Shown: positions 21,298-54,057 of the stretch, piece after piece | Numbering within the stretch: position 1 is the first letter of the stretch | Layout of the letters: each line of letters opens with the position of its first letter | IMG/VR virus record: IMGVR_UViG_3300046318_000165 | Location: 26,752 to 90,751 of that record | Source: a virus | DNA length: 64,000 bases | Strand: one strand, 5' to 3' | The notes under the pieces: generated by a model | The model's input: only the letters and a program-made list of their open reading frames with translations | Database searches by the model: none | What the model was told of the DNA's origin: nothing | Program-made: the position numbers and the translations under genes

Positions 21298-21498
21298 TCA
21301 CCATTTATCCAAAGGGCACTGAGCTTTATGTAAAGTCGTTTTTAACTTCATAAAGCAACCACACTTTGTACATTTTACTAATTTTTTATTTAAAAAAGGG
21401 CATTCATTACAAATCGCAAGTCTCGCAGCTATTAACTCTTCATCACTTCTTGGTTGATTCGGATTAAATAGATCTATGAATCTTACATCGTCTGACAT
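21298..21498 (-). CDS. DUF6171-like zinc protein, leaderless
   Basis: 66 residues. CNECPF, CTKCGCFMKLKTTL, then CPLDKW form the cysteine pattern of a widespread family of small phage proteins (DUF6171-like by pattern). The ATG lies 6 nt after an extended -10 box, implying a leaderless mRNA. Function unknown. Confidence 0.75.
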   Translation of the reverse strand: MSDDVRFIDLFNPNQPRSDEELIAARLAICNECPFLNKKLVKCTKCGCFMKLKTTLHKAQCPLDKW

Positions 21499-29010: not shown

Positions 29011-29019
29011 TGTTATAAT
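29011..29019 (+). promoter_or_regulatory. Extended -10 promoter (TGTTATAAT), leaderless
   Basis: Ends 6 nt before the ATG at 29026. Confidence 0.65.
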
Positions 29020-31985: not shown

Positions 31986-32025
31986 TGATATATCAATCAA
32001 TCCTAAAGAAAGTGTGGTAGATACC

Positions 32026-34056
32026 ATGTCAGAGTTTTTTTCATTTAGACTTACAGATGATTTTGTAGATAAATACAAGGCTGTAGAGTCCCCATTCGGT
32101 TTCGTAGATGCAGGAGGTAACTCTCTAGGCGAAATTACATTTGTAAGAACCTACTCTCGTGTCAAGGAAGATGGCACAAAGGAACGCTGGCACGAAGTCT
32201 GTCGCCGTGTAATTGAGGGTATGTATTCAGTTCAGAAGAACCATGCCAAAGAATCACGTCTTCCTTGGAATGACTACAAGGCACAGAAATCAGCACAAGA
32301 AGCATTTGATCGAATGTTTACTTTGAAGTGGACACCACCAGGACGTGGTATGTGGTCATTTGGAACACCACTAACTATGGAGAAGCGTAACTCTGCTGCT
32401 CTGCAAAACTGTGCTGTAGTATCTACTAAAGACTTAGATAAAAATGATCCAGGTGCATTATTTGCTTGGGTTATGGATGCTCTAATGCTTGGTATTGGTG
32501 TTGGCTTTGATACCCTTGGACAAGATAAGAATTTCCAGATTTATGCACCAACAGAACCAGCAACTACTTTTGTTATTCCAGATGACCGTGAGGGTTGGGT
32601 AGAATCTACTCGTCTACTTATTAATTCATTCCTACGACCTAACCAGTCTATTCAGGAATTTGACTATTCTGAGATTCGTCCAGAGGGAGCACCAATCAAG
32701 GGATTTGGTGGAACTGCTTCAGGACCTGCTCCACTAATCAAGATGCACAATACTATCCGTCAAGCTATTGGAACTCGTGCAGGAGAGCACTTTGACTCTC
32801 GTGCAATCGTAGATATTATCAACCTTATTGGAACCTGTGTTGTTGCAGGTAACGTTAGACGATCCGCTACCCTTGCTCTTGGAGTAGATGGTGACGAAGA
32901 CTTCCTAAACCTAAAGAATGCTGAGGCATTTCCAGAGCGTAACTCATATGATCCAGCAAAGCCAGGCTGGGCATGGATGTCTAATAACTCTATTGCTGCA
33001 ACCGTAGGAATGGACTATGCAAAGTATGTAGACCGTATTGCAGATAACGGAGAGCCAGGATTTATTTGGCTAGATGTTGCTCGTAACTTCGGTCGTCTAG
33101 CAGATCCAGCAGATGGTGCAGACTATCGTGTAGTTGGATTCAATCCTTGTGCAGAACAGCCACTAGAGTCATATGAGCTATGTACTCTAGTTGAGGTTCA
33201 CCTAAACCGTCACGAGTCAAAGGAAGACTTCCTACGTACTCTAAAGTTTGCCTACCTATATGGAAAGACTGTAACACTTCTTCCAACTCACTGGCAACAG
33301 ACAAATGGTATCATGCAACGTAATCGCCGTATCGGAACATCACTTACTGGTATTGCGTCATTTGCTGATGAGCATGGTCTACCAACTACTCGTGAGTGGA
33401 TGGACGAAGGCTACAACAAGATTCGTTTCTACGACAAGAAGTATTCAGAATGGCTATGTGTTCGTGAATCAATTCGTGTAACTACAGTTAAGCCGTCTGG
33501 ATCTGTATCGATTCTATCTGGAGCTACCCCTGGCGTTCACTGGGGTCCAGGTGGAAAGTTCTATCTTCGTGCTATTCGTTTTGGTAACACTGACCCAATG
33601 CTTCACCTTTTCAAGGCAGCAGGGTACAAAGTTGAAGACGATCTAGTATCAGGTGGAACATCAGTAGTATACTTCCCAATTGCATCTGGACAGAAGCGAG
33701 CAGAGAAGCAAGTAACACTATTTGAAAAGATGGCTCTTGCTGCAACTGCACAAAAGTACTGGTCAGATAATGGAGTATCAGTAACCCTATCATTTGATAA
33801 GGAAACTGAGAAGCAGCACATTGCTTCTGTTCTAAATATGTATGAGGGTCAGCTAAAGGCTGTATCGTTCCTGCCAATGGGTAACACTGTTTATCCACAG
33901 CAGCCATACACTGAAATTACAGAGAATGAATATGACTACTACATCGGTCGTATTGCTAAGATTGATTTCTCTGCAATCTATGATGGAGTAGACAATTTAG
34001 AAGCTCTTGGCGAAAGTTACTGCACCACGGACTACTGTGAGATTAAAATCAAGTAG
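32026..34056 (+). CDS. nrdJ: Adenosylcobalamin-dependent (class II) ribonucleotide reductase
   Basis: 676 residues; reduces ribonucleoside triphosphates to deoxy forms for phage DNA synthesis using coenzyme B12. Visible motifs: TPPGRGMW near 105, ALQNCAVVST near 128 (redox Cys), NPCAEQPLESYELCTLVE near 375 (radical Cys, Glu, second redox Cys), PSGSVS near 490 and a C-terminal CTTDYC pair that fits the re-reducing cysteines of the Lactobacillus-type monomeric enzyme. All key cysteines are present. A GTG four codons upstream could be the start. Unusual location between fibre and portal genes with its own promoter and terminator. Confidence 0.95.
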   Translation: MSEFFSFRLTDDFVDKYKAVESPFGFVDAGGNSLGEITFVRTYSRVKEDGTKERWHEVCRRVIEGMYSVQKNHAKESRLPWNDYKAQKSAQEAFDRMFTLKWTPPGRGMWSFGTPLTMEKRNSAALQNCAVVSTKDLDKNDPGALFAWVMDALMLGIGVGFDTLGQDKNFQIYAPTEPATTFVIPDDREGWVESTRLLINSFLRPNQSIQEFDYSEIRPEGAPIKGFGGTASGPAPLIKMHNTIRQAIGTRAGEHFDSRAIVDIINLIGTCVVAGNVRRSATLALGVDGDEDFLNLKNAEAFPERNSYDPAKPGWAWMSNNSIAATVGMDYAKYVDRIADNGEPGFIWLDVARNFGRLADPADGADYRVVGFNPCAEQPLESYELCTLVEVHLNRHESKEDFLRTLKFAYLYGKTVTLLPTHWQQTNGIMQRNRRIGTSLTGIASFADEHGLPTTREWMDEGYNKIRFYDKKYSEWLCVRESIRVTTVKPSGSVSILSGATPGVHWGPGGKFYLRAIRFGNTDPMLHLFKAAGYKVEDDLVSGGTSVVYFPIASGQKRAEKQVTLFEKMALAATAQKYWSDNGVSVTLSFDKETEKQHIASVLNMYEGQLKAVSFLPMGNTVYPQQPYTEITENEYDYYIGRIAKIDFSAIYDGVDNLEALGESYCTTDYCEIKIK

Positions 34057-41680: not shown

Positions 41681-41733
41681 TAATCTGAGGAAACACGCCC
41701 ACTATTCTATAGAAAGAAAAAGAGGTGAATACT

Positions 41734-42402
41734 ATGGCATATTCAAGAGGTACTAGTGCTAACATTATTGTTGGTGCAGCTGCACTTTTTACATATGAGG
41801 CAGGACCAATCGGTCAGACAGTCGGTGGATCAATTACTGATCAACAGGCTCTGATTGACCTACCAAACTATGTAGCAGGAGTTTCTTATAAAGAAACTCT
41901 ATCAAACGATGCAGATTTCCGTAACGTAGGTTATACTATGAACGGTCTAGAACTACAATTCCAGCCTGACTTCGGTGAAGTTCAGGTTGACCAGGTTCTT
42001 GACGCTGCAAAGCTATACAAGCAAGGTATGAAGGTAAATCTAAATACTACATTCGCTGAAGCAACATTAGAAAATCTATTGTTTGCTCTAGCAGGTAGAG
42101 ATGAAGATCTAACTGCAAACCAAACTGGAATCAGTATCCTAAACCTTTCAGCAGGTGACATCGGTGAATGTCCTGTTGAGCGTGGTCTAGTTGCTATCGG
42201 TCCAGGTTCTGGTGATTGTGATGCAGGTTCGGCTATCGAACGTGTATACATTGCCTACCGTGCACTTTCAATTGAAAGCGTAACCGTATCAGCAAAGCGT
42301 GATGCTCCATCAGAGTTTGCGGTTTCATTCCGTATGCTTCCAAATGATAACGCAAGTTATGGAAGAATCGTTGACCGCACAGTTAGTGTATCAGGTTCAT
42401 AA
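41734..42402 (+). CDS. Major tail protein
   Basis: 222 residues, beta-rich (MAYSRGTSANIIVGAAALFTYEAGP...). Residues 60-130 (TMNGLELQFQPDFGEVQVDQVLDAAKLYKQG) and 180-222 (VSAKRDAPSEFAVSFRMLPNDN) fit tail tube proteins. It has its own promoter, a good ribosome-binding site and a strong terminator, as expected of a protein made in hundreds of copies. A GTG three codons upstream is less likely. Confidence 0.82.
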   Translation: MAYSRGTSANIIVGAAALFTYEAGPIGQTVGGSITDQQALIDLPNYVAGVSYKETLSNDADFRNVGYTMNGLELQFQPDFGEVQVDQVLDAAKLYKQGMKVNLNTTFAEATLENLLFALAGRDEDLTANQTGISILNLSAGDIGECPVERGLVAIGPGSGDCDAGSAIERVYIAYRALSIESVTVSAKRDAPSEFAVSFRMLPNDNASYGRIVDRTVSVSGS

Positions 42403-42422
42403 AAATATAATTTAATATTGAG

Positions 42423-42450
42423 AACTGCTCCACTTCGGTGGGGCAGTTTT
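42423..42450 (+). terminator. Intrinsic terminator after the major tail gene
   Basis: AACTGCTCCAC / GTGGGGCAGTT, loop TTCG, followed by TTCGTTT. Confidence 0.85.
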
Positions 42451-42458
42451 CGTTTATT

Positions 42459-42467
42459 TGGTATACT
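42459..42467 (+). promoter_or_regulatory. Extended -10 promoter (TGGTATACT), leaderless
   Basis: Ends 6 nt before the ATG at 42474. Confidence 0.65.
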
Positions 42468-42473
42468 TGTATA

Positions 42474-43157
42474 ATGGCTACTAAAATATATGACTCAGCG
42501 ACAATACGATTAATTGATGGTACAGAGATTTACATAACACCATTAAAGATAAAATATCTAAGGGACTTTTTAGATGAATTTGAAAATATAAAAACAGCAA
42601 AGAATGATGATGAATCAATGTCAGTTCTTTCAAACTGTGCAACTATAGCAATGAAGCAATACTATCCATCAATAAAAACGGTAGAGCAACTAGAAGACCT
42701 ATGCGACTTAAAAACTGTATACAAGATAGTAGATGTAGCAGCAGGTATAAAAATAGATAGGGATAAAGAAGAAGAGCCTGTTAAGCAACAAGCAGAAGAG
42801 AGTGGATCTAGCTGGGACAAATTGGATCTAGCAAAATTAGAAACAGAGGTATTTCTTCTGGGCATCTGGAAAGATTTCTCAGATTTAGAGTCTTCAATAT
42901 CTATACCAGAATTAACATCAATTCTTGAATTAAAAAGAGAATTAGATTATGATGAAAAGAAATTCCTTGCAGCTATTCAAGGAGTAGATTTGGATGAAGC
43001 ATCTGGTAAAGAAAATGAGTGGGAAGCCATGAAAGCTAGAGTATTTAGTGGTGGAAAAGCAACAAGTGCAAACGATATTGTTGGCTATCAAGGCTCAAGG
43101 GCAGCTCAAGTAGGCTTTGGAATTGGTATGGGCTTAGACTATGAAGATATGAGATAA
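42474..43157 (+). CDS. Tail assembly chaperone, long form
   Basis: 227 residues. The first 95 residues (LIDGTEIYITPLKIKYLRDFLDEFE...DLKTVYKIVDVAAGIKI) align with the whole of the next gene's product; the remaining 130 are an extra helical domain (LGIWKDFSDLESSISIPELTSIL). In most siphoviruses a short and a long chaperone (lambda G and GT) come from one gene pair by ribosomal frameshift; here the long form is a separate gene. Positions the tape measure protein for tube assembly. Confidence 0.78.
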   Translation: MATKIYDSATIRLIDGTEIYITPLKIKYLRDFLDEFENIKTAKNDDESMSVLSNCATIAMKQYYPSIKTVEQLEDLCDLKTVYKIVDVAAGIKIDRDKEEEPVKQQAEESGSSWDKLDLAKLETEVFLLGIWKDFSDLESSISIPELTSILELKRELDYDEKKFLAAIQGVDLDEASGKENEWEAMKARVFSGGKATSANDIVGYQGSRAAQVGFGIGMGLDYEDMR

Positions 43158-43172
43158 AAATAATATCTTTTG

Positions 43173-43181
43173 TGATATAAT
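43173..43181 (+). promoter_or_regulatory. Extended -10 promoter (TGATATAAT)
   Basis: Followed by AAGGAGG before the ATG at 43208; gives the short chaperone its own supply of mRNA. Confidence 0.65.
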
Positions 43182-43207
43182 TAATATACCTTACAAGGAG
43201 GAAATTA

Positions 43208-43525
43208 ATGACAACAACAATCAACGAAGAGAAAGAAATTACTCTATTCGATGGATCAAAAATTAAAGTCAGACCACTAAAGCTATCGCTTCTTCGTCAA
43301 TTTATGAAAAAGTTTGAGGGCATTGCAGATGTCGCAGAAGACAACGAAAAATCAATGGATCTTCTTATGGAATGTGTAAAGATTGCACTAGTACAGTATA
43401 AGCCAGAACTATTAGAAAAACCAGAGGAGTTAGAGGACCTACTAGACCTTCCTACAGTCTACCAGATTGTAGAAGAGGCATCTGGCGTTAAGCTACAAGA
43501 TGCATCGCTACTAGGCGGATTCTAA
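43208..43525 (+). CDS. Tail assembly chaperone, short form
   Basis: 105 residues: LFDGSKIKVRPLKLSLLRQFMKKFEG, CVKIALVQYKPELLEKPEELEDLLDLPTVYQIVEEASGVKL. Homologous to the first half of the product at 42474-43157 and lacking its C-terminal domain, as lambda G lacks the T part. Strong ribosome-binding site and own promoter. Lies directly before the tape measure gene, the standard place. Confidence 0.8.
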   Translation: MTTTINEEKEITLFDGSKIKVRPLKLSLLRQFMKKFEGIADVAEDNEKSMDLLMECVKIALVQYKPELLEKPEELEDLLDLPTVYQIVEEASGVKLQDASLLGGF

Positions 43526-43543: not shown

Positions 43544-46500
43544 ATGGCTGATGCTAATGCTGAAATTAAAGTTAATATAGATACGAGTAATGCACTCTCT
43601 AGTCTAAAACTACTTCAAGCACAAATATCAGCTTTTCAACAGCAAATGGCAAGATCTGGTGCACAAGCTGCCAGAACTGCATCAGATATGCAGCAAAACC
43701 TTGTAAATAATATAAATGCCACTGGACAGTTTTCAGCAACTTTAAAAAATATTCAAACTGATACTGAAGCATTTACAACTTCACTTGAAAAAAATAAACT
43801 TTCATTAGGTCAGTATTTTAAATATGCTGGCGGTGCTTCAAAATCATTCGGTAAAATGTTTAGAACCGAATTTGATACCATACAAAAGGTAGCAGTAGAA
43901 CGTGTAAAAGACTTACAAACACAATATATCCAACTTGGTCGTGATGCTAATGGTGCTATGAGGTCCATTGCAGTTAGACCACTTGCTTTGGATATGGAAA
44001 ATCTGGGAACAAAAACTCAGATTGCTGCTCAGAAACAACAGCTATTAAATCAACTTCTTAAACAAGGTTCTACCAACCTTCTAAACTTTGGTAAGAACAC
44101 TCAATGGGCTGGTCGTCAGCTTATGGTTGGTTTTACTATTCCTCTTGCAATGCTAGGAACAACTGCTGCCAAAACCTTTATGGATATGGAAGAGCAAGTA
44201 ATTAAATTTAAGCGTGTTTATGGAGATCTTGGAACTACTATTGAAGAAACCAATAGAATGTCTAAAGAGATTCAAAACCTAGCAACACAGTTTACCCAAT
44301 ATGGCGTAGCAGTTAAAGACACAATGGCTCTAGCAGCCCAGGCAGCAGCCTCTGGTAAAATGGGGGCAGACTTAACTGCTCAAGTAACAGAGGCAACGAG
44401 ACTAGCAGTTCTAGGTCAGGTAGACCAGCAACAAGCTCTTGAAACAACAATATCTCTTACAAATGCTTTTGGTGTCTCTGCTGATAAGCTAAAGGGAAAG
44501 ATTAACTTCCTAAACACAGTAGAAAACCAAACCGTAACATCTATTGAAGACTTAACAATAGCTATTCCAAAAGCTGGACCTGTTGTTGAACAACTTGGTG
44601 GAAATGTAGAAGACCTAACATTCTTCCTAACAGCAATGAAGGAAGGTGGAATTAATGCATCAGAAGGTGCTAACGCACTTAAGTCTGGTCTTGCTGCCAT
44701 AATTAATCCAACTGGAAAAGCTTCTGAAATGCTTGCTGGTTTTGGAATTAATATAAAAGGATTAGTAGATTCAAATAAGGGAGATGTTAAGGGACTTATT
44801 ATGGGGCTTGCAACAGCTCTTAATAAACTTGATCCAACTGACCGTGCTCGTGCTATTGAACAAATGTTTGGTAAGTTCCAGTTTGCACGTATTTCAACAT
44901 TATTCAAAAACGTAGTAGCTGAAGGTAGCCAGGCAACAAGAGTTCTTGAATTAACAAAATCAAGTAGTATGCAATTAGCAGCACTAGCTTCTCAAGAATT
45001 AGATAAAGTCTCTCAGTCACCAATGTTTAAGTTTAAAAAAGCTGTTGAAGATATAAAAACATCATTGATGCCAGTAGGTGAAGAATTCCTAAAGCTTGCA
45101 ACACCAGTAATTGAGTTCGGAACAAAAGTATTAGACGCTTTTAATAAACTAGATTCAGGTACAAAACAGTTTATGACAGGACTTATAGCTGTAGTTGCTG
45201 GTATTGGACCAGTCTTGCTAATGACATTTGGTCTTATTGCTAATGGTGTAGCAAACGTAATTAAAGGTTTTGCTTTTATCAAGAATGTATTCAATAGAGC
45301 TGGAACAGCTTCTACAGTGCTTGGCGAACAAGTAAGCTATATGACTCAGGAACAGCTTAACGCTGCTGCTGTTGCATCATCACTAAAACAATCTCACACA
45401 AATCTTACACAAGCTTTCAATGTTGAAGCTGGAGCACTAGCAAACCTTAGAGTTCAATACGAAAGAACTACTGCTGCTCAAATGGCATTCTCAGGAACAA
45501 ACAATATTCCAAGACCTGGCACAAGAAGATTTGCAACTGGTGGAATGGTTCGTGGTCCAGGAAATGGAACTAGCGACTCTATTCCAGCAATGGTGTCAAA
45601 TGGAGAATTTATTGTAAGTGCTAAAAGAACTAAACAATACCTACCACTTCTACAAAATATAGCATCAGGAAAAGTTCCTGGATTTGCTAGTCCAGAAGGT
45701 GGAAGTCTTATTGGCTCAATGTCTACAAATGGAATAAAAGCATCACAGGCTACAATTTTTTCAATAAAAAAAATTATTGAAGCTATTAGTAGTGGAGCTA
45801 TTAAAATTAATAAATCAGAAGAAGTTTTAGCTAAAACAATGCAAGATCTTGGTGACGGTACAAGAACAACAATGCAAAGATTTTTTCAAAGACTTGCTGT
45901 AAATGCAGACGAAATTGCTGGACAAAGTGTTGCAAATCAAGTTAATACTTATCATCAAAAAACTCTGGGCAAGTCTGGAAAAGCTATTCGTTACAGTGCA
46001 AGTGGCGTAGGAACTATTGAACAACAACTTGGTGATGCAGGAAGACTTGACGAACTTGCAAGAGCAAGAGCAAGACTAGAAGCTGAATCAGCACTAGGAC
46101 TTCCAGGACAAATTCAGATAGATAGAGCACACAGAGTAGATGTTGGAAAATCTGGAAAATTATTTAAACAAGGTTGGACTTCAGAGGCATGGAATCCACA
46201 AACACATAGTGAAAATGCAATCTCAAATGCTCTTTCTGGAGATAATAGAGTTACTGGATTCTTTGAAATGTATTCTAAAAATTTAAAGAAAATGCTTGAT
46301 GAAGGACTTGTAACTCAAGAAGAATATGATTCAATCATGCATAAAGCTAAAAATAACTTAGCCTTATCTGAAAGAGAGTTATTAACTCAGAGTAAAGTTT
46401 TAAAGGAAATTACTAAAACAGAACAAGAATTTTTAGCTAAAAATAAAGCATTAAGTTACAATATACAACGTGCTAGAGCTGGAGCATCAATTTCTGGAGG

Positions 46501-48985
46501 ACTGGAAACATCTGGTAATGCTGGAAGTATTTCAAGAGAAGCTGAAATAGTTGTTATGCAAGATTTAGAAGCAGCTAAGAAAGGTATAATTACAGGTATA
46601 AGAAAGAAAACAAAAACAAATTCTCCATCAATAGAAGCTGAAGAAGTTGGAAAAGATATCGGTCAAGGTTTTCTCGATGGTGGAAAAGAAAAAATTGATG
46701 ATGCTATACTAGTTGGAGAAAACTTAGCAGATTCAGTTGTACAGGGAGCTAGAAAACCAGGATCTAGACGTATAATTGTAGATCCAAATACTATGACAAC
46801 CCAAGCTGGAGCAAACATGGGGGGTAATGGTCGTGGAGGAAAGCGTAGATCAGGTCAAAGAGCAGGGCATTATGAAAATGGAAAATTCTATCCAGTAATG
46901 AACTATCAACCTGGAGATCAACCAGTACCAGGAATGTATGATCAACCACTTGGTCCAGCAGCACCAACAAGAAAACAAAAACTTCAAATGAAGGTGCAAG
47001 GATTTAAAAATAACCTAACAACTAAAGCAAAAAACTTAACTGGACTTAAGGTTGGTGGTGCATTAGGTGGTGCATCAATGGTTGCAGGAATGGCTGGCAT
47101 GGCAGGAGTACCAGGTATGGGTGAGCTATCAGGAGTACTAGGTGTAATGACTATGTTTAGTGGAACTATTGCAAAGGTTATTCCACATCTATTAAAGTTT
47201 ATACCTGGAATTGGATTAGCCGTAACTGCAATTAGTGCATTTGTTATTGTTTCAAATCTAATTAATGATGCTAAGAAAAAAGAATTGCAAGAAATTACTG
47301 CTTTGGGAAATGCAGCAACATTAACTAAAGATCAGCTAACAAATTTGGGAAATAAGTTTGGAATATCTGCAAGTGGCAACGCATTTGATTTAACCACTAG
47401 TGGTGCAACAACAAGTGTTGGAGCAAAACAGAGATCAGATTTAGAAATTTTAAAGAAAGATGAAACATTTCAAAATGATTTTAAACAAACTATTGAAACT
47501 TTAAAAACTTCTAATAATATGGATGCATCTGTAGTTCTTAAATCATTAGCTATTCAATTACAAGGTTCAGGATTTGCTAAAGAACAAATTGATACAATTG
47601 TTACTGCAATAAAAGAAGAAGCTAAAAAAACAGACCTAGTTATTGATCTTAATAAAATTGATATAAATACAAAATCAGGACAAACATCACTACAGAAAAC
47701 AGCAAAAGGTCTAGTTAATCAATTAAATAAAGCTGTTAATACTAAGGGTGCAATAACCACAGAACAAATTCGAGGTCAAGGGACAGGAGTAGTAAAGGTA
47801 ATAGGAAAAGATGTATTTTCAAAAGATTTAGAAGAAAAAATTGATAAAGTATCTAAAACAACAGTAGTAAACTTGGGATACATTACAACTGGTCTTCAAA
47901 ATGGTCAGATAAGTTCAAAAGCTTATAAAAAATCAATAGATGGACTGAGATCTTCAATTTTATCTTTAGGTGAAAATAGCAAAACAACTCAAATACTAAT
48001 GGCAGGAATGATTAAAAATAGTGGAATGGGTAAGGCTGCACAAGATTTAGCTAATTCAATTAAAGATGCATCCACACAATTACTTGTTCTTCAGGGATAT
48101 GCATTAGGATTACAGAATTTTCAATTTGTCGCTAATGCACAAGCAGTTTTAGATGATCCAAAAGCTACTGCAGATGCAAAAGAAAGAGCAACAGAAGCCA
48201 TTGACAAATATGATAGAGCCATAAAAAGAAAAATCGCTCAAAATGCAAAAAATGCACAAGACGAAGCAAATACTTTAATGGATACCCCAAGTGCATCTGA
48301 CCTTACAGCACAAGAAGATGCTAGAATTAAAGCACTTGAAGCAAAGCTAAAAGCATTAAATAAAGAAAGAGATGCATTAAAAGAAATAAATGCTGAACTA
48401 AAGAGACAACAAGATTTTGAGTTAGCACAACAACAGCGTTACATGGACATGAAGACAGCATATATCTCAGGAGACTATCTCAAAGCAGGAATTTTAAGAC
48501 AAGAATCTGTTTATGCTAAAGCACAATTTGACAAAGAAACAGCAGATATAAAAGCAGAAAAGAAAATTTCTTTACTTGAAAACAGAATATCTGAAATAGA
48601 GGGCGGAGCAAGACCCACAGCTGGAGAAATAAAAAAGTCAAAGAGGATGGCAACTGGAGGACTCATTAAGGGTCCAGGAACTGGCACTAGCGATTCAATT
48701 CTAGGAACATTAAAATTTGCTGCTGGAGGAATAGCACCAATTAGGGTTTCTAATGGAGAATTTATAACTCGTGCAGCATCAGTTGCCAAGTATGGTGTTG
48801 ACTTTATGAATTCAGTTAACAATGGTTCTTACAATACAGAAACATCAGGCAGCAGTTCAGTGTATAATGTTAGTATGACAATTAATGGTGCAGGACAAAA
48901 TGCTGATGAAATTGCTAATAAAGTTATATCTAAACTTAATAATCTTGCTATGAAGAATAATAAGAGTAACAGGGTGATTGTCTAA
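43544..48985 (+). CDS. Tail tape measure protein
   Basis: 1813 residues, longest gene of the window, which sets tail length. Residues 190-390 form the TP901-type core (NFGKNTQWAGRQLMVGFTIPLAML, QFTQYGVAVKDTMALAAQAAASGK, GNVEDLTFFLTAMKEGGINASEGA). Hydrophobic stretches occur near 550 (FMTGLIAVVAGIGPVLLMTFGL) and 1170-1245. GPGNGTSDSIPAMVSNGEF near 670 recurs as GPGTGTSDSI with VSNGEF near 1705-1740. Coiled coil near 1590-1690. By length the tail would be about 270 nm if 1.5 angstrom per residue holds. Confidence 0.93.
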   Translation: MADANAEIKVNIDTSNALSSLKLLQAQISAFQQQMARSGAQAARTASDMQQNLVNNINATGQFSATLKNIQTDTEAFTTSLEKNKLSLGQYFKYAGGASKSFGKMFRTEFDTIQKVAVERVKDLQTQYIQLGRDANGAMRSIAVRPLALDMENLGTKTQIAAQKQQLLNQLLKQGSTNLLNFGKNTQWAGRQLMVGFTIPLAMLGTTAAKTFMDMEEQVIKFKRVYGDLGTTIEETNRMSKEIQNLATQFTQYGVAVKDTMALAAQAAASGKMGADLTAQVTEATRLAVLGQVDQQQALETTISLTNAFGVSADKLKGKINFLNTVENQTVTSIEDLTIAIPKAGPVVEQLGGNVEDLTFFLTAMKEGGINASEGANALKSGLAAIINPTGKASEMLAGFGINIKGLVDSNKGDVKGLIMGLATALNKLDPTDRARAIEQMFGKFQFARISTLFKNVVAEGSQATRVLELTKSSSMQLAALASQELDKVSQSPMFKFKKAVEDIKTSLMPVGEEFLKLATPVIEFGTKVLDAFNKLDSGTKQFMTGLIAVVAGIGPVLLMTFGLIANGVANVIKGFAFIKNVFNRAGTASTVLGEQVSYMTQEQLNAAAVASSLKQSHTNLTQAFNVEAGALANLRVQYERTTAAQMAFSGTNNIPRPGTRRFATGGMVRGPGNGTSDSIPAMVSNGEFIVSAKRTKQYLPLLQNIASGKVPGFASPEGGSLIGSMSTNGIKASQATIFSIKKIIEAISSGAIKINKSEEVLAKTMQDLGDGTRTTMQRFFQRLAVNADEIAGQSVANQVNTYHQKTLGKSGKAIRYSASGVGTIEQQLGDAGRLDELARARARLEAESALGLPGQIQIDRAHRVDVGKSGKLFKQGWTSEAWNPQTHSENAISNALSGDNRVTGFFEMYSKNLKKMLDEGLVTQEEYDSIMHKAKNNLALSERELLTQSKVLKEITKTEQEFLAKNKALSYNIQRARAGASISGGLETSGNAGSISREAEIVVMQDLEAAKKGIITGIRKKTKTNSPSIEAEEVGKDIGQGFLDGGKEKIDDAILVGENLADSVVQGARKPGSRRIIVDPNTMTTQAGANMGGNGRGGKRRSGQRAGHYENGKFYPVMNYQPGDQPVPGMYDQPLGPAAPTRKQKLQMKVQGFKNNLTTKAKNLTGLKVGGALGGASMVAGMAGMAGVPGMGELSGVLGVMTMFSGTIAKVIPHLLKFIPGIGLAVTAISAFVIVSNLINDAKKKELQEITALGNAATLTKDQLTNLGNKFGISASGNAFDLTTSGATTSVGAKQRSDLEILKKDETFQNDFKQTIETLKTSNNMDASVVLKSLAIQLQGSGFAKEQIDTIVTAIKEEAKKTDLVIDLNKIDINTKSGQTSLQKTAKGLVNQLNKAVNTKGAITTEQIRGQGTGVVKVIGKDVFSKDLEEKIDKVSKTTVVNLGYITTGLQNGQISSKAYKKSIDGLRSSILSLGENSKTTQILMAGMIKNSGMGKAAQDLANSIKDASTQLLVLQGYALGLQNFQFVANAQAVLDDPKATADAKERATEAIDKYDRAIKRKIAQNAKNAQDEANTLMDTPSASDLTAQEDARIKALEAKLKALNKERDALKEINAELKRQQDFELAQQQRYMDMKTAYISGDYLKAGILRQESVYAKAQFDKETADIKAEKKISLLENRISEIEGGARPTAGEIKKSKRMATGGLIKGPGTGTSDSILGTLKFAAGGIAPIRVSNGEFITRAASVAKYGVDFMNSVNNGSYNTETSGSSSVYNVSMTINGAGQNADEIANKVISKLNNLAMKNNKSNRVIV

Positions 48986-49458: not shown

Positions 49459-52400
49459 ATGTTAGATACAGTTAGCTCAGATGTTTTTTCAAATTCAAAT
49501 TATATTGGAATGACACCAGTAGTTTCAGCAGAATGGAACAATAACCTTTATAATGCACCATACGTAACCATGTCTGGTGATGGAAGTTTTGATCCTACCA
49601 AACTTGTTGTTCAAACTGGAACTGGTTTAACTACCCCATCATCAGTACTATCTACAAGTGATTATGCTAAGGAAAACTTTACAACAAAAAGTTTTGCAAT
49701 TCCAGCAGGTAGCGATACAACGCCATCAACTGTAAAATACAAATATACTGATGCATTTACTTCAGCTACATCATATTCATATAAAGTAGTTTTTTATGCT
49801 AAAACAGATAGTCTTTTTCCAGTAACTGTAAATTCAAATATTGACATCATTGACGGAACAGCGGTAATTTCATCTGCAGGAAGCTCAGAAGTTATCGATT
49901 CTCTTACATGGACAAAGTTTGAACTTTTGTTTAACTGGCACTCACACCGCAACACAGGAAGCTTTGATATTTATATATCAGCCTTCAATAATGTTTCTTA
50001 TTCAACTAGCTCTAATGTATACATAACTTTGCCAGAAGTGTATGAGATCTCAGCATTTGATTATGAGTATGGATCATTGTGGTCAACCTATAGTCCATTT
50101 AGTTTTTTCAGACCAGGGGAGTCATACGTAACAACTGGAAATGCTGATGTCGCTTATCCTACAAACTTTAGAAGAGTAACTAATGGATTAAAGAGTGGAC
50201 AGACATACCAGGATATGCCAGTAAGTCCATTACTATATAATCCAAACTTCTTTTTAGCATCACCACCAGTTGGAATTTTTAAATCTGGTGTTGCAAATGA
50301 CATATATCCATACCAATATTTTGTATCATCACTACAGACAACAAAAAGAAAACTAACAGCTAAGTATGAAAGAAGTGTTTATTCAAATAAAATTGTTTTA
50401 AAGTTTAACACAATTATGTCAGTTCCAACAGTTACTGTAAAATTAGACGGAACAAGTATTGGATCATTTGTGCCAGAAACAAACGGAACACTTGTATTAT
50501 ACTATAATGGATCAACCTGGAGCAAAACTAGATGGGATTATTCATCTATGCCAAAGTTTACATCATCAGGATCTATATCACCATCATATGCAACATTTAC
50601 AAAAATAACATTAGAGCAAGTGCTTGCATCAACGACCATAAATTCAGAGTTTTCTGATTCTAAATATACATCCTTGGCAGATGAATTTAAAAGATTCCAG
50701 ATAATTGAAGTATCTCCTAGACTAGAGTTAGATGTATCTTCATTGGTAAAATCTATAAGTATTAGAAAGTCTTTAGATAGTCAAAATACATATATGCCAA
50801 TATCATCAATTAACTCTAACGATGCAAATATAGTTTTATCATCAATACCATTTACATCTTCTTCTGGAGATCCTATTCCAATATTTTCTAATGAAAGCAA
50901 CATTACAAATAATATCTTAAAGAATATGTTAAGAAAAAATGTTAAGTTTTATATTAACTATTTACTTTCCGAATATAAGGGTGACTCTTTTTCAACGACA
51001 GACTACCACGTTCCTGGCGGAATTTTTTATTCAGAAAGCTGGAATGAAGAAGATGCCAATGCTGTTAACATTCAGTCATATGATATATCCAGATACTTAC
51101 AGACAACTCCTGTGCCAGATTATGTTGTAAAAAATAAAACAGTATTTGAAATAATTACAAATATCCTTGACCTTGCTGGATTTACAGATTATGATTATGA
51201 TTCATTATATAATATTTGTAATGATCCATCAGTGCCATTAGATGTAGCGTACTATTACTGTAACTCACAAGATTCAACTATTATAAATAGCTTGTCAGAA
51301 CTATTTCTTGCCTATCAAATTGGAGCATATATTGACGAGTATGGAGTTATGAAGTTTTTAAGCCTAAACAAAATTCTTACAAACACCACAAGTGATATTT
51401 CTATTACAGATTCAAATATTCTTGAAGGCGGATATTCTTTTGAGTCAGGTGCTAAACCAGGAAAAATTTCACTAAGATACCAGCCACCAAAAATAAAGCA
51501 ATCTTTATCACTTCAGAATGCAAAAAACTTTGGAGCATCTATTTCGCCATCATTTATTTATACAACATCCAACGATGTTGTTTGGTCACAACAAAATCTA
51601 GATTCAGTTGGATTTAATTATTTAAATTCTAATTTTTTGAAAACAGATAAAAGATTTGATTTAAAAATAAATGACCTATTAGATATTTTTCACACATATT
51701 CATTAAATAATGATGGATATGCAATTATTGAAAATGAAATAGTTTCATTTTTAAATAAAGAATATACCCTTACAACTGAAGGTACAGGATCAACAGAAAC
51801 AGTATCTGTAAAAAGTGATATAGAACTTGGCTCAGAAATAAATAGGTTTATTAAAAAATATGTTGTAGGATTTAGATCAGTATCTGCAACAGTAAGTTCG
51901 GTAACTGTGGCAAGTGGTCTTGCAACCTATACTTATACTGCAACCAATAGATTTAGGGTCGGAGACAAGGTTACAATTTCTGGAGTATCTCCATCAACAT
52001 ACAATTTATCAGCATCAGTAGAGCAGGTATCCGCTGTTGGCGTAACACCAAAAACATTTACAATAAAAAGAGCATTTCTAGCCGATGTGTCAGCAACATC
52101 AATTTCTGGATCTGCAATAGCAAACTCTGGCTATGACATTACAATAGAACCAACTGGTAAAATTACAAATGTTCAAAGAGGAATGTTTAATACTAAGGTT
52201 ACAGATCATAAAATATTAACAACCCTATCGGACAAAAGTTTAACATCAGCTGCCATAGGTTCTGGAGGAACTGTATCAATATCCAATAACAAAGTAAGAC
52301 TTTCGGGTGCTGGAAATACTGGAAAAATATTTGTTTTCCCAACAACAGATACTGATTATGGAAACAGTACAGATTCAATAACTGGAAAGTATTTGGGGTA

Positions 52401-54057
52401 TCAAACATACTTAACAAAGTTTACTTTAAATGATATATCATATGGTGCAGCAGCAACTGGATTAGTTTTTAATGCTTCATCAGGAACATATAACAAGGCA
52501 TATTTTGTTGAAATGATAAAAGCATTTAAAGAAATAGATACATATGAATACTTTATGGCAGTTTACTATTATAACTCTAGCGGTACAAAAGTAGTTGTAG
52601 GATATTCTAATATTACTTCAACAGTTAATTCAATAATTAAAAATTTCCCAAAGGTGTTGAAAAAAACACAATATGTTCCAGTAGCTTATGGACAAGATAA
52701 TACCACCATAACAACACCTTTTGTTTTAAGAGTTGCTCATTATTCTGAAGAAACATCACTTGGAAACCTGTCAAATTCATCAGATAGGGTTCTTAGAGTA
52801 TTTTTAAATAATGTTGAAATAACTGGTTGGCAAATTCCAATAACAAGTTTATCTGCAACAATAACTACTGCTACAGGAGGTAGCTTTACCCCTTCAACCA
52901 TAACTTACAATGCTACTAACTCTTTTACAGTAGGAGATTTTGTTTCTATATCTGGAGTAACTCCAAATGAATATAACATATCTGGAACAATTGCATCAAG
53001 AACATCGTCATACTTTACTATTAATAGTTACGTTCCTACTCTAAGTAGTGGAACTGGAGGAACTGCAAAAATAGTAAACGTTGTATCTGGAACTGATTAT
53101 GTTACTATTGGCACTAATACTATAACTGGATTTACAAAACATCTATCAATACCAACATCAACAAATCCATTAGTTAGTCCAGCTGGTGCTTATGGCACTG
53201 CAAGTAAATTTGGATTCTATGCAAGTTCAGCACCTGGAATAACTACTGGATATGAAAATTCATCTTCAGGAATTATTGCAGATGTTTCAGAACTTTATGC
53301 TACCCAAACACCATTAAAACAGCATTCATCTAATTATTTTTATCAAGATAAAAAATTCTTGAATAGTGTAATTCAAGGACAAAGCAATACTGAGCTAACA
53401 TACTCTATGCAAACTAAGCCAGAGGTAATTGGTATTAATTATTATGATGTTCAGTATACAACCCCTGCAGCTGTGAGCGTTGATGTTCTTCCAATAGAAT
53501 ACTTGTGGTATTATTTTCCTAGTGCTGAAATAGAGGATCAAAAATGGTATCAAACACAAATGGTAGACGAACACTCTCTTGCCTATTCAACTCCAATTAA
53601 TACTGGATTTAAAGCAAGAATGCTGGTAGTAAATAATTCGCCACACATGGTTTATCTAAACAAAGATTCTGATGAATTAAACCAATTCACCATTAGATTT
53701 AATCTATGGACACATGAAATTATTGCACAATCAGATCAAGAAAGCATCGATAAAATTGTTGATGATGCTAACAGTTCTGAAGTTGCACAAATAGATTCAG
53801 AATGGATTCAATCAAGACAGGCAGCAAATAAAATACTAGCATCAATAAATGCTGGACTAGAAGGACTTTCAAAAACAACAAGTCTTAGAATATATGGAAA
53901 TCCATTAATTCAAGTCGGAGATGTTGTGACTCTGACATATCCATTAAGTGGAATTAATCAGCAAAAGTATTTTGTGCATTCTATTAATCAATCATTTAGT
54001 AATGGTCTAAGCACAGACCTTGTTCTTAAAACACTTAAAAGTGGGGTGGCTTATTAA
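49459..54057 (+). CDS. Large minor tail / baseplate hub protein
   Basis: 1532 residues, second gene after the tape measure. Residues 60-200 look like a jelly-roll carbohydrate-binding domain (YSYKVVFYAKTDSLFPVTV...). Around 560-640 (TVFEIITNILDLAGFTDYDY) and at the end (NPLIQVGDVVTLTYPLSGINQQKYFVHSINQSFS) are hub-type segments. Two inserted small beta domains contain GVSPSTYNLS near 850 and GVTPNEYNIS near 1175, related to the insert of the connector at 38854. Probably forms the tail tip and carries host-binding inserts. Confidence 0.75.
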   Translation: MLDTVSSDVFSNSNYIGMTPVVSAEWNNNLYNAPYVTMSGDGSFDPTKLVVQTGTGLTTPSSVLSTSDYAKENFTTKSFAIPAGSDTTPSTVKYKYTDAFTSATSYSYKVVFYAKTDSLFPVTVNSNIDIIDGTAVISSAGSSEVIDSLTWTKFELLFNWHSHRNTGSFDIYISAFNNVSYSTSSNVYITLPEVYEISAFDYEYGSLWSTYSPFSFFRPGESYVTTGNADVAYPTNFRRVTNGLKSGQTYQDMPVSPLLYNPNFFLASPPVGIFKSGVANDIYPYQYFVSSLQTTKRKLTAKYERSVYSNKIVLKFNTIMSVPTVTVKLDGTSIGSFVPETNGTLVLYYNGSTWSKTRWDYSSMPKFTSSGSISPSYATFTKITLEQVLASTTINSEFSDSKYTSLADEFKRFQIIEVSPRLELDVSSLVKSISIRKSLDSQNTYMPISSINSNDANIVLSSIPFTSSSGDPIPIFSNESNITNNILKNMLRKNVKFYINYLLSEYKGDSFSTTDYHVPGGIFYSESWNEEDANAVNIQSYDISRYLQTTPVPDYVVKNKTVFEIITNILDLAGFTDYDYDSLYNICNDPSVPLDVAYYYCNSQDSTIINSLSELFLAYQIGAYIDEYGVMKFLSLNKILTNTTSDISITDSNILEGGYSFESGAKPGKISLRYQPPKIKQSLSLQNAKNFGASISPSFIYTTSNDVVWSQQNLDSVGFNYLNSNFLKTDKRFDLKINDLLDIFHTYSLNNDGYAIIENEIVSFLNKEYTLTTEGTGSTETVSVKSDIELGSEINRFIKKYVVGFRSVSATVSSVTVASGLATYTYTATNRFRVGDKVTISGVSPSTYNLSASVEQVSAVGVTPKTFTIKRAFLADVSATSISGSAIANSGYDITIEPTGKITNVQRGMFNTKVTDHKILTTLSDKSLTSAAIGSGGTVSISNNKVRLSGAGNTGKIFVFPTTDTDYGNSTDSITGKYLGYQTYLTKFTLNDISYGAAATGLVFNASSGTYNKAYFVEMIKAFKEIDTYEYFMAVYYYNSSGTKVVVGYSNITSTVNSIIKNFPKVLKKTQYVPVAYGQDNTTITTPFVLRVAHYSEETSLGNLSNSSDRVLRVFLNNVEITGWQIPITSLSATITTATGGSFTPSTITYNATNSFTVGDFVSISGVTPNEYNISGTIASRTSSYFTINSYVPTLSSGTGGTAKIVNVVSGTDYVTIGTNTITGFTKHLSIPTSTNPLVSPAGAYGTASKFGFYASSAPGITTGYENSSSGIIADVSELYATQTPLKQHSSNYFYQDKKFLNSVIQGQSNTELTYSMQTKPEVIGINYYDVQYTTPAAVSVDVLPIEYLWYYFPSAEIEDQKWYQTQMVDEHSLAYSTPINTGFKARMLVVNNSPHMVYLNKDSDELNQFTIRFNLWTHEIIAQSDQESIDKIVDDANSSEVAQIDSEWIQSRQAANKILASINAGLEGLSKTTSLRIYGNPLIQVGDVVTLTYPLSGINQQKYFVHSINQSFSNGLSTDLVLKTLKSGVAY

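Follow-up and report, generated by a model that had tools for sequence, protein, structure and literature searches.

A fused long gene and a separate short gene for the putative tail assembly chaperones of an actinophage lineage

Results

Gene content of the locus

The window analysed here is a stretch of 64,000 nucleotides from a 90,751-base IMG/VR virus record. It carries two consecutive genes on the plus strand, hereafter LONG and SHORT, which sit between the gene for the major tail protein and that for the tape measure protein, as annotated tail assembly chaperones do. The locus comprises the following features, for which the terminator, the promoters and the functions of the gene products are predicted.

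41725–42402, plus strand: major tail protein gene (Ig-domain type), upstream neighbour; product matches PHROG 2175 'protein with Ig domain' (E=5e-30)
42419–42452, plus strand: intrinsic terminator hairpin after the major tail protein gene; 15-pair stem followed by a T-rich tail
42459–42467, plus strand: P1, extended -10 promoter TGGTATACT for LONG; the -10 hexamer ends 6 nt before the ATG
42474–43157, plus strand: LONG tail assembly chaperone, 227 aa; in-frame fusion of G and T domains
43173–43181, plus strand: P2, extended -10 promoter TGATATAAT between LONG and SHORT; TATAAT is conserved there
43195–43201, plus strand: Shine-Dalgarno sequence AAGGAGG of SHORT, 6 nt before the ATG
43208–43525, plus strand: SHORT tail assembly chaperone, G domain only, 105 aa
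43544–48985, plus strand: tape measure protein gene, downstream neighbour; product matches PHROG 10030 tape measure (E=1e-101)

In lambda-like siphophages, the interval from the major tail protein gene to the tape measure gene encodes a short G protein and a long G-T protein, generated by frameshifting. The ratio of gpG to gpG-T in lambda is given as 30:1 in a review (PMC5009743).

The neighbouring genes define the position of the pair. The product of 41725–42402 gives a weak additional match to PHROG 885 (major tail protein), is syntenic with the annotated major tail proteins of phages Circinus, Stanimal and Patelgo, and shares 62% identity with the corresponding protein of L222, a relative that uses frameshifting. 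The product of 43544–48985 is homologous to annotated tape measure proteins. LONG has its conserved start at ATG 42474, and the start codon is ATG in 84 of 85 relatives. The start selected by the mechanical open reading frame call, GTG 42438, was rejected, as it falls within the terminator hairpin and relatives do not conserve it. Elsewhere in the window, a gene for a vitamin B12-dependent ribonucleotide reductase (32014–34056) lies shortly before the genes for the portal and other virion proteins, and an open reading frame of 1532 aa with no Pfam match (49459–54057) lies downstream of the tape measure gene.

Domain organization and predicted structures of LONG and SHORT

LONG is composed of a G domain (approximately residues 1–95), a linker and a T domain (approximately residues 110–227, encoded from nt 42801). 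The C-terminal T domain is absent from SHORT. Alignment of the two proteins, proposed in an earlier note on this DNA, paired residues 1–96 of SHORT with residues 1–94 of LONG over 96 columns (43% identity, 66% similarity; E=6e-18), and the core residues D15, P23, L24, K25, L29, R30 and F32 are common to both G domains. The note had stated that the long product equals the short one plus a C-terminal domain. The extra domain and the homology are borne out, but the equality is not, since 43% identity indicates diverged paralogues and not identical copies. The organization resembles that of gpG and gpG-T in lambda-like phages, where the long form likewise consists of the domain of the short form with a T domain at its C-terminus.

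Both LONG (through its N-terminal part, E=5e-20) and SHORT match PHROG 10504, and the C-terminal part of LONG matches PHROG 10474 (E=7e-13). Searches of Pfam and of PDB sequences returned no match for either protein. In tblastn searches of phage records, 115–128 records were returned, nearly all of them Streptomyces phages, and many of the matched genes are annotated as tail assembly chaperones. The T domain of LONG is homologous to the T open reading frames that Stanwilliamsviridae phages carry in the -1 frame, and can be aligned with them.

An AlphaFold2 model of SHORT was obtained with a mean pLDDT of 72. The top fold match of this model in the PDB was the HK97 tail assembly chaperone (PDB code: 2ob9), at scores that are not significant (E 0.38, probability 0.63, TM ~0.45), so that an HK97 gp13-like fold for the G domain of SHORT is suggestive only. 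The fold search with the model of LONG gave no meaningful match. The order of strands and helices is identical in the N-terminal domain of the LONG model and in the SHORT model, and the structural similarity that the earlier note had anticipated is thus seen at the level of the predicted folds.

Transcription and initiation signals

The first T of the -10 hexamer of P1 (TATACT) lies 12 bp before the ATG of LONG. An extended -10 element precedes LONG in 82 of 85 non-redundant relatives, with a gap to the ATG of 6 nt in 67 and of 9 nt in 10, and 70 of 81 relatives have a terminator-like hairpin before LONG. A Shine-Dalgarno motif was sought before LONG and was found in none of the 85 non-redundant relatives. 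Leaderless genes are common in actinobacteria (PMC3898074; PMC3160421), where their signature is TANNNT approximately 12 bp before the start codon (PMC3160421). LONG carries the sequence features of this leaderless class, and its mRNA should start at the ATG. A TATAAT that overlaps the ATG (42470–42475) was also considered as the -10 element of LONG; it would place the predicted transcription start inside the gene, whereas TGGTATACT is conserved and places it at the ATG.

For SHORT, a Shine-Dalgarno sequence is present in 87 of 87 relatives, and an extended -10 element is found 23–36 nt upstream in 79 of 87. The signals conserved among the relatives therefore match the earlier reading that each gene has a promoter of its own, with LONG predicted to be leaderless and SHORT preceded by AAGGAGG. 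TATAAT occurs in the gap between LONG and SHORT in 81 of 81 relatives and in the gap between SHORT and the tape measure gene in none of the 81. In the relatives, neither the gap between LONG and SHORT nor the one before the tape measure gene yielded a terminator. Transcription of SHORT, and presumably that of the tape measure gene as well, would be driven by P2. In the absence of a terminator between LONG and SHORT the transcript from P1 should run on into SHORT, which is thus probably fed by both P1 and P2. The frameshifting relatives L222 and L203 carry a TGnTATAATT promoter directly before the tape measure gene, which suggests that SHORT fills the space between a pre-existing promoter and the tape measure gene.

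Two states of the locus among relatives

Relatives were collected from viral contigs with LONG, SHORT, T-domain and Streptomyces G queries, taking the best 80 matches per scan, so that such loci are more numerous than those counted here. In a first pass, the LONG–SHORT pair was present in all 171 uncut IMG/VR loci listed. Hidden Markov models of G and T were run over the forward frames of 269 loci. Among the 269 listed, 221 carry G and T as an in-frame fusion followed by a separate G gene; in 43 the only G is accompanied by T in the -1 frame, and the remaining 5 are truncated at contig ends. Mixed states, namely a frameshift together with an extra G or a fused gene without SHORT, were found in none of the 269 loci listed. 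Several loci share a contig, and removal of near-copies left at least 87 two-gene and at least 22 frameshift loci.

The second state is that of the Stanwilliamsviridae (Samisti12, Circinus, Stanimal and Patelgo). These phages have homologous G and T with the same neighbours, and in them, too, a terminator and then a -10 promoter precede G. They differ from the window in that G is present once, with no second copy, T is read in the -1 frame, and the stretch where the two overlap contains a slippery or conserved shift site; the chaperone of Patelgo is annotated as a joined product.

A search of genome contigs for a host-linked copy returned one relative of the frameshift type, L271 (5001–5617), with the slippery sequence CCCAAAC. 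The contig is labelled as an uncultured cyanobacterium MAG; since L271 groups with L253 among actinophage-like relatives, it is probably misbinned. WhiB is encoded in the genome from which the window derives and also in every one of 8 long relatives with the two-gene state, which supports an actinobacterial host. The setting of the two-gene group is presumably freshwater, judging from IMG/VR sample origins and from papers on freshwater actinophages; phages of freshwater Nanopelagicales have been isolated (PMC10202952).

Direction of change and origin of the second G gene

In a tree of the N-terminal region of the tape measure protein, which is independent of the trait, the two-gene phages group together as a single clade (SH-aLRT 92) that lies inside a succession of frameshifting lineages. 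The order is Streptomyces phages, then L253 and L271, then L214 and L229, then L203 and L222, with the basal order resting partly on long branches. The tree of the T domain requires one change of state. As judged from these trees, the two-gene state arose once, from a frameshifting grade. Together with the count of 221 loci with a fused gene and a separate G against 43 with T in the -1 frame among those listed, this single nested origin upholds the view that two genes stand here in place of a frameshift.

In the tree of G domains, LONG-G forms one clade (98; 100/99), and SHORT-G lies beside the G of L222, the nearest frameshifting phage among the matches listed (94/85). LONG-G is not the sister of SHORT-G; it branches more deeply, on a long branch. 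Such a separation could be explained if the second G gene had been acquired by recombination from another phage and had not arisen by duplication in the lineage. We regard this origin as possible but doubtful, because a constraint that unites LONG and SHORT in one clade is not rejected (p-AU 0.335), because long-branch effects are likely given the faster evolution of LONG-G, and because no outside donor was found. Duplication within the lineage would be the simplest reading for the second G gene.

Selection on the G and T domains

The median dN/dS is 0.06 for SHORT, 0.18 for LONG-T and 0.31 for LONG-G; the pairs were picked separately for each part, and the values serve as a rough guide. By these estimates all three parts are under purifying selection, with SHORT the most constrained. 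The ratio for LONG-G is about five times that for SHORT, and this, along with the long branch of LONG-G, would be in keeping with two chaperones that have taken on separate tasks, for example with LONG acting mainly as an initiator together with the tail tube protein, in which case the ratio logic of lambda would be gone. Separate promoters could in addition be timed differently. However, the same G core is present in both proteins, and all uncut two-gene loci listed retain T in fusion with a G domain, as expected if mixed assembly matters. A division of tasks is on this evidence unlikely, and we retain the reading of LONG and SHORT as the two forms of one chaperone pair.

Slippery sites and the junction of G and T

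For the frameshift group, 29 distinct regions of G/T overlap were compared. Of these, 15 contain a canonical X XXY YYZ heptamer in frame with G, as C CCA AAT, C CCA AAC or G GGA AAC, and the other 14, which are Samisti12-like, have GAC CCG GAA, all at one position. In the Samisti12-like L001 and its relatives, GAC CCG GAA stands where others have GAC CCA AAT. CCCGGAA is a non-canonical heptamer, yet it is conserved at the place of the shift.

The earlier note had advised searching the short gene for a slippery site and for an extension in a shifted frame. No conserved heptamer was found in SHORT, where no column has more than 2 of 87 sequences with one, and none was found in LONG, where the best column (A6G/A7, 19 of 86) lies within the T domain. 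A shifted-frame remnant of T was sought after SHORT, where the shifted frames are in most cases closed immediately; 18 nt separate the stop codon of SHORT from the start of the tape measure gene. The region of LONG in which the domains are joined (GIKINEKS..SGSSWETLDLAKLE) resembles the frameshift product of relatives (in L222, KLDAEG..RSDGGSSWSELDLAKLE), and LONG may accordingly be seen as a hard-wired version of that product. As far as can be read from the sequence, the locus has neither the conserved slippery site nor the T in a shifted frame that mark a lambda-type pair made by frameshifting.

A programmed frameshift might nonetheless operate in hidden form, yielding an extended SHORT or a truncated LONG product, with the second gene as a spare. 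The LONG genes are AT-rich and contain occasional A6G or T6G heptamers (19 of 86 in the best column just mentioned; 11 of 87 near the domain junction), and all closest relatives outside the two-gene group, among the matches listed, do frameshift. Given that no heptamer is conserved, that SHORT is nearly devoid of them at any column and that its end leaves so little room for a shifted frame before the tape measure gene, we consider a hidden frameshift very improbable. An artefact of assembly or gene calling is scarcely credible: the window does come from an IMG/VR virus record and the mechanical call does pick a wrong start for LONG, but the same pair recurs with conserved signals in at least 221 loci, from many samples and in divergent sequences, and its recurrence there and in the 171 loci of the first pass argues against both assembly artefact and chance.

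Discussion

It is highly probable that LONG and SHORT are the gpG-T-like and gpG-like forms of the tail assembly chaperone, encoded by one gene each in replacement of an ancestral -1 frameshift. This interpretation rests on the homology of the proteins, the gene order, the signals at the locus, the loss of the slippery site and the nested origin of the two-gene group. In lambda-like phages the two forms depend on a frameshift; in the window, the long and the short form are served by separate genes, promoters and start signals.

The arrangement could have come about as follows. The ancestor would have had a single gene from which both forms were made through a -1 frameshift. In one actinophage lineage, the G-T product would then have been hard-wired as an in-frame gene behind the terminator and the leaderless P1. 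A further G gene, equipped with a strong ribosome-binding site, would have been placed between the pre-existing tape measure promoter, P2, and the tape measure gene. By analogy with lambda, SHORT may coat the tape measure protein, and LONG may recruit tail tube subunits through its T domain. An excess of SHORT would be generated by initiation, with two promoters and a Shine-Dalgarno sequence on one side and one leaderless start on the other, instead of by the frequency of slippage. The transcription starts, the ratio and the roles of the two proteins are parts of this scheme that we infer.

Leaderless translation can be efficient in actinobacteria, so the direction of the ratio is not readable from sequence alone. 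We are evenly divided on whether the balance of G-T to G is set by competition between leaderless and leadered initiation, together with the two promoters, in replacement of slippage. If the ratio is set at initiation, the balance could possibly be tuned over the course of infection or by the state of the host.

Separate genes for the two forms have a counterpart in T4-like phages. The T4 proteins gp26 and gp51, which we take to be the pair of the published T4-like account, show a weak alignment (20% identity, E=2e-6), and their genes, 26 and 51, are transcribed divergently. A passage in PMC10885494, citing Vladimirov, Gautam and Davidson (2022), describes some T4-like phages in which frameshifting is replaced by a pair of genes, one short and the other longer and fused, and this is also the arrangement of LONG and SHORT. 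On the strength of that passage the two-gene solution is already known in kind, and the T4-like precedent reduces the novelty of the present case. T4 is, however, a myovirus with divergent genes, whereas the genes described here are in tandem on one strand and divide between a leaderless and a Shine-Dalgarno start. A further difference from the T4-like pair is that frameshifting sister lineages show the direction of change; the origin from frameshifting actinophages seen in the trees argues for independence from the T4-like pair. In Microbacterium cluster EA phages, two chaperone open reading frames are expressed separately and, as in the window, no frameshift is evident at the chaperone locus (PMC7302621). 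Compared by description, the EA locus differs in that PMC7302621 does not present it as a short gene and an in-frame fused long paralogue.

With respect to the open-access literature searched, what is new is a probably independent case among WhiB-bearing actinophages that are relatives of the Stanwilliamsviridae, with frameshifting sisters surviving. Also new are the reuse of the tape measure promoter and the split between leaderless and leadered starts, conserved throughout the clade.

The tail chaperone frameshift is among the most conserved recoding events of phages, and its usual explanation is the fixed ratio of the two forms that it provides. A large natural clade that has dropped the frameshift, beside lineages that keep it, suggests that the conserved thing is the pair of products and not the slip. 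The two-gene and frameshifting lineages offer a before-and-after pair in which the requirements of the ratio can be tested, as well as a natural case in which one member of a stoichiometric pair has a leaderless start and the other a leadered one. For annotation, two adjacent tail assembly chaperone genes need not mean that a frameshift has been missed.

Leaderless-type starts elsewhere

The arrangement TGNTATAMT-N6-ATG occurs five times in the window (at 21496 on the minus strand and at 29011, 42459, 59016 and 61422) against 0.21 expected, and leaderless expression appears to be a theme throughout the part of the phage genome that the window covers. The extended -10 element TGNTATAMT itself occurs 28 times in the window, against 9.3 expected. 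In L222 (3640–3700), G has an in-frame ATG of leaderless type (MAIKKGNE) 8 nt after TGATATACT. A second ATG of this G is preceded by an AAAGGG motif, and the two together would make a possible dual start, a state that could precede a leaderless LONG.
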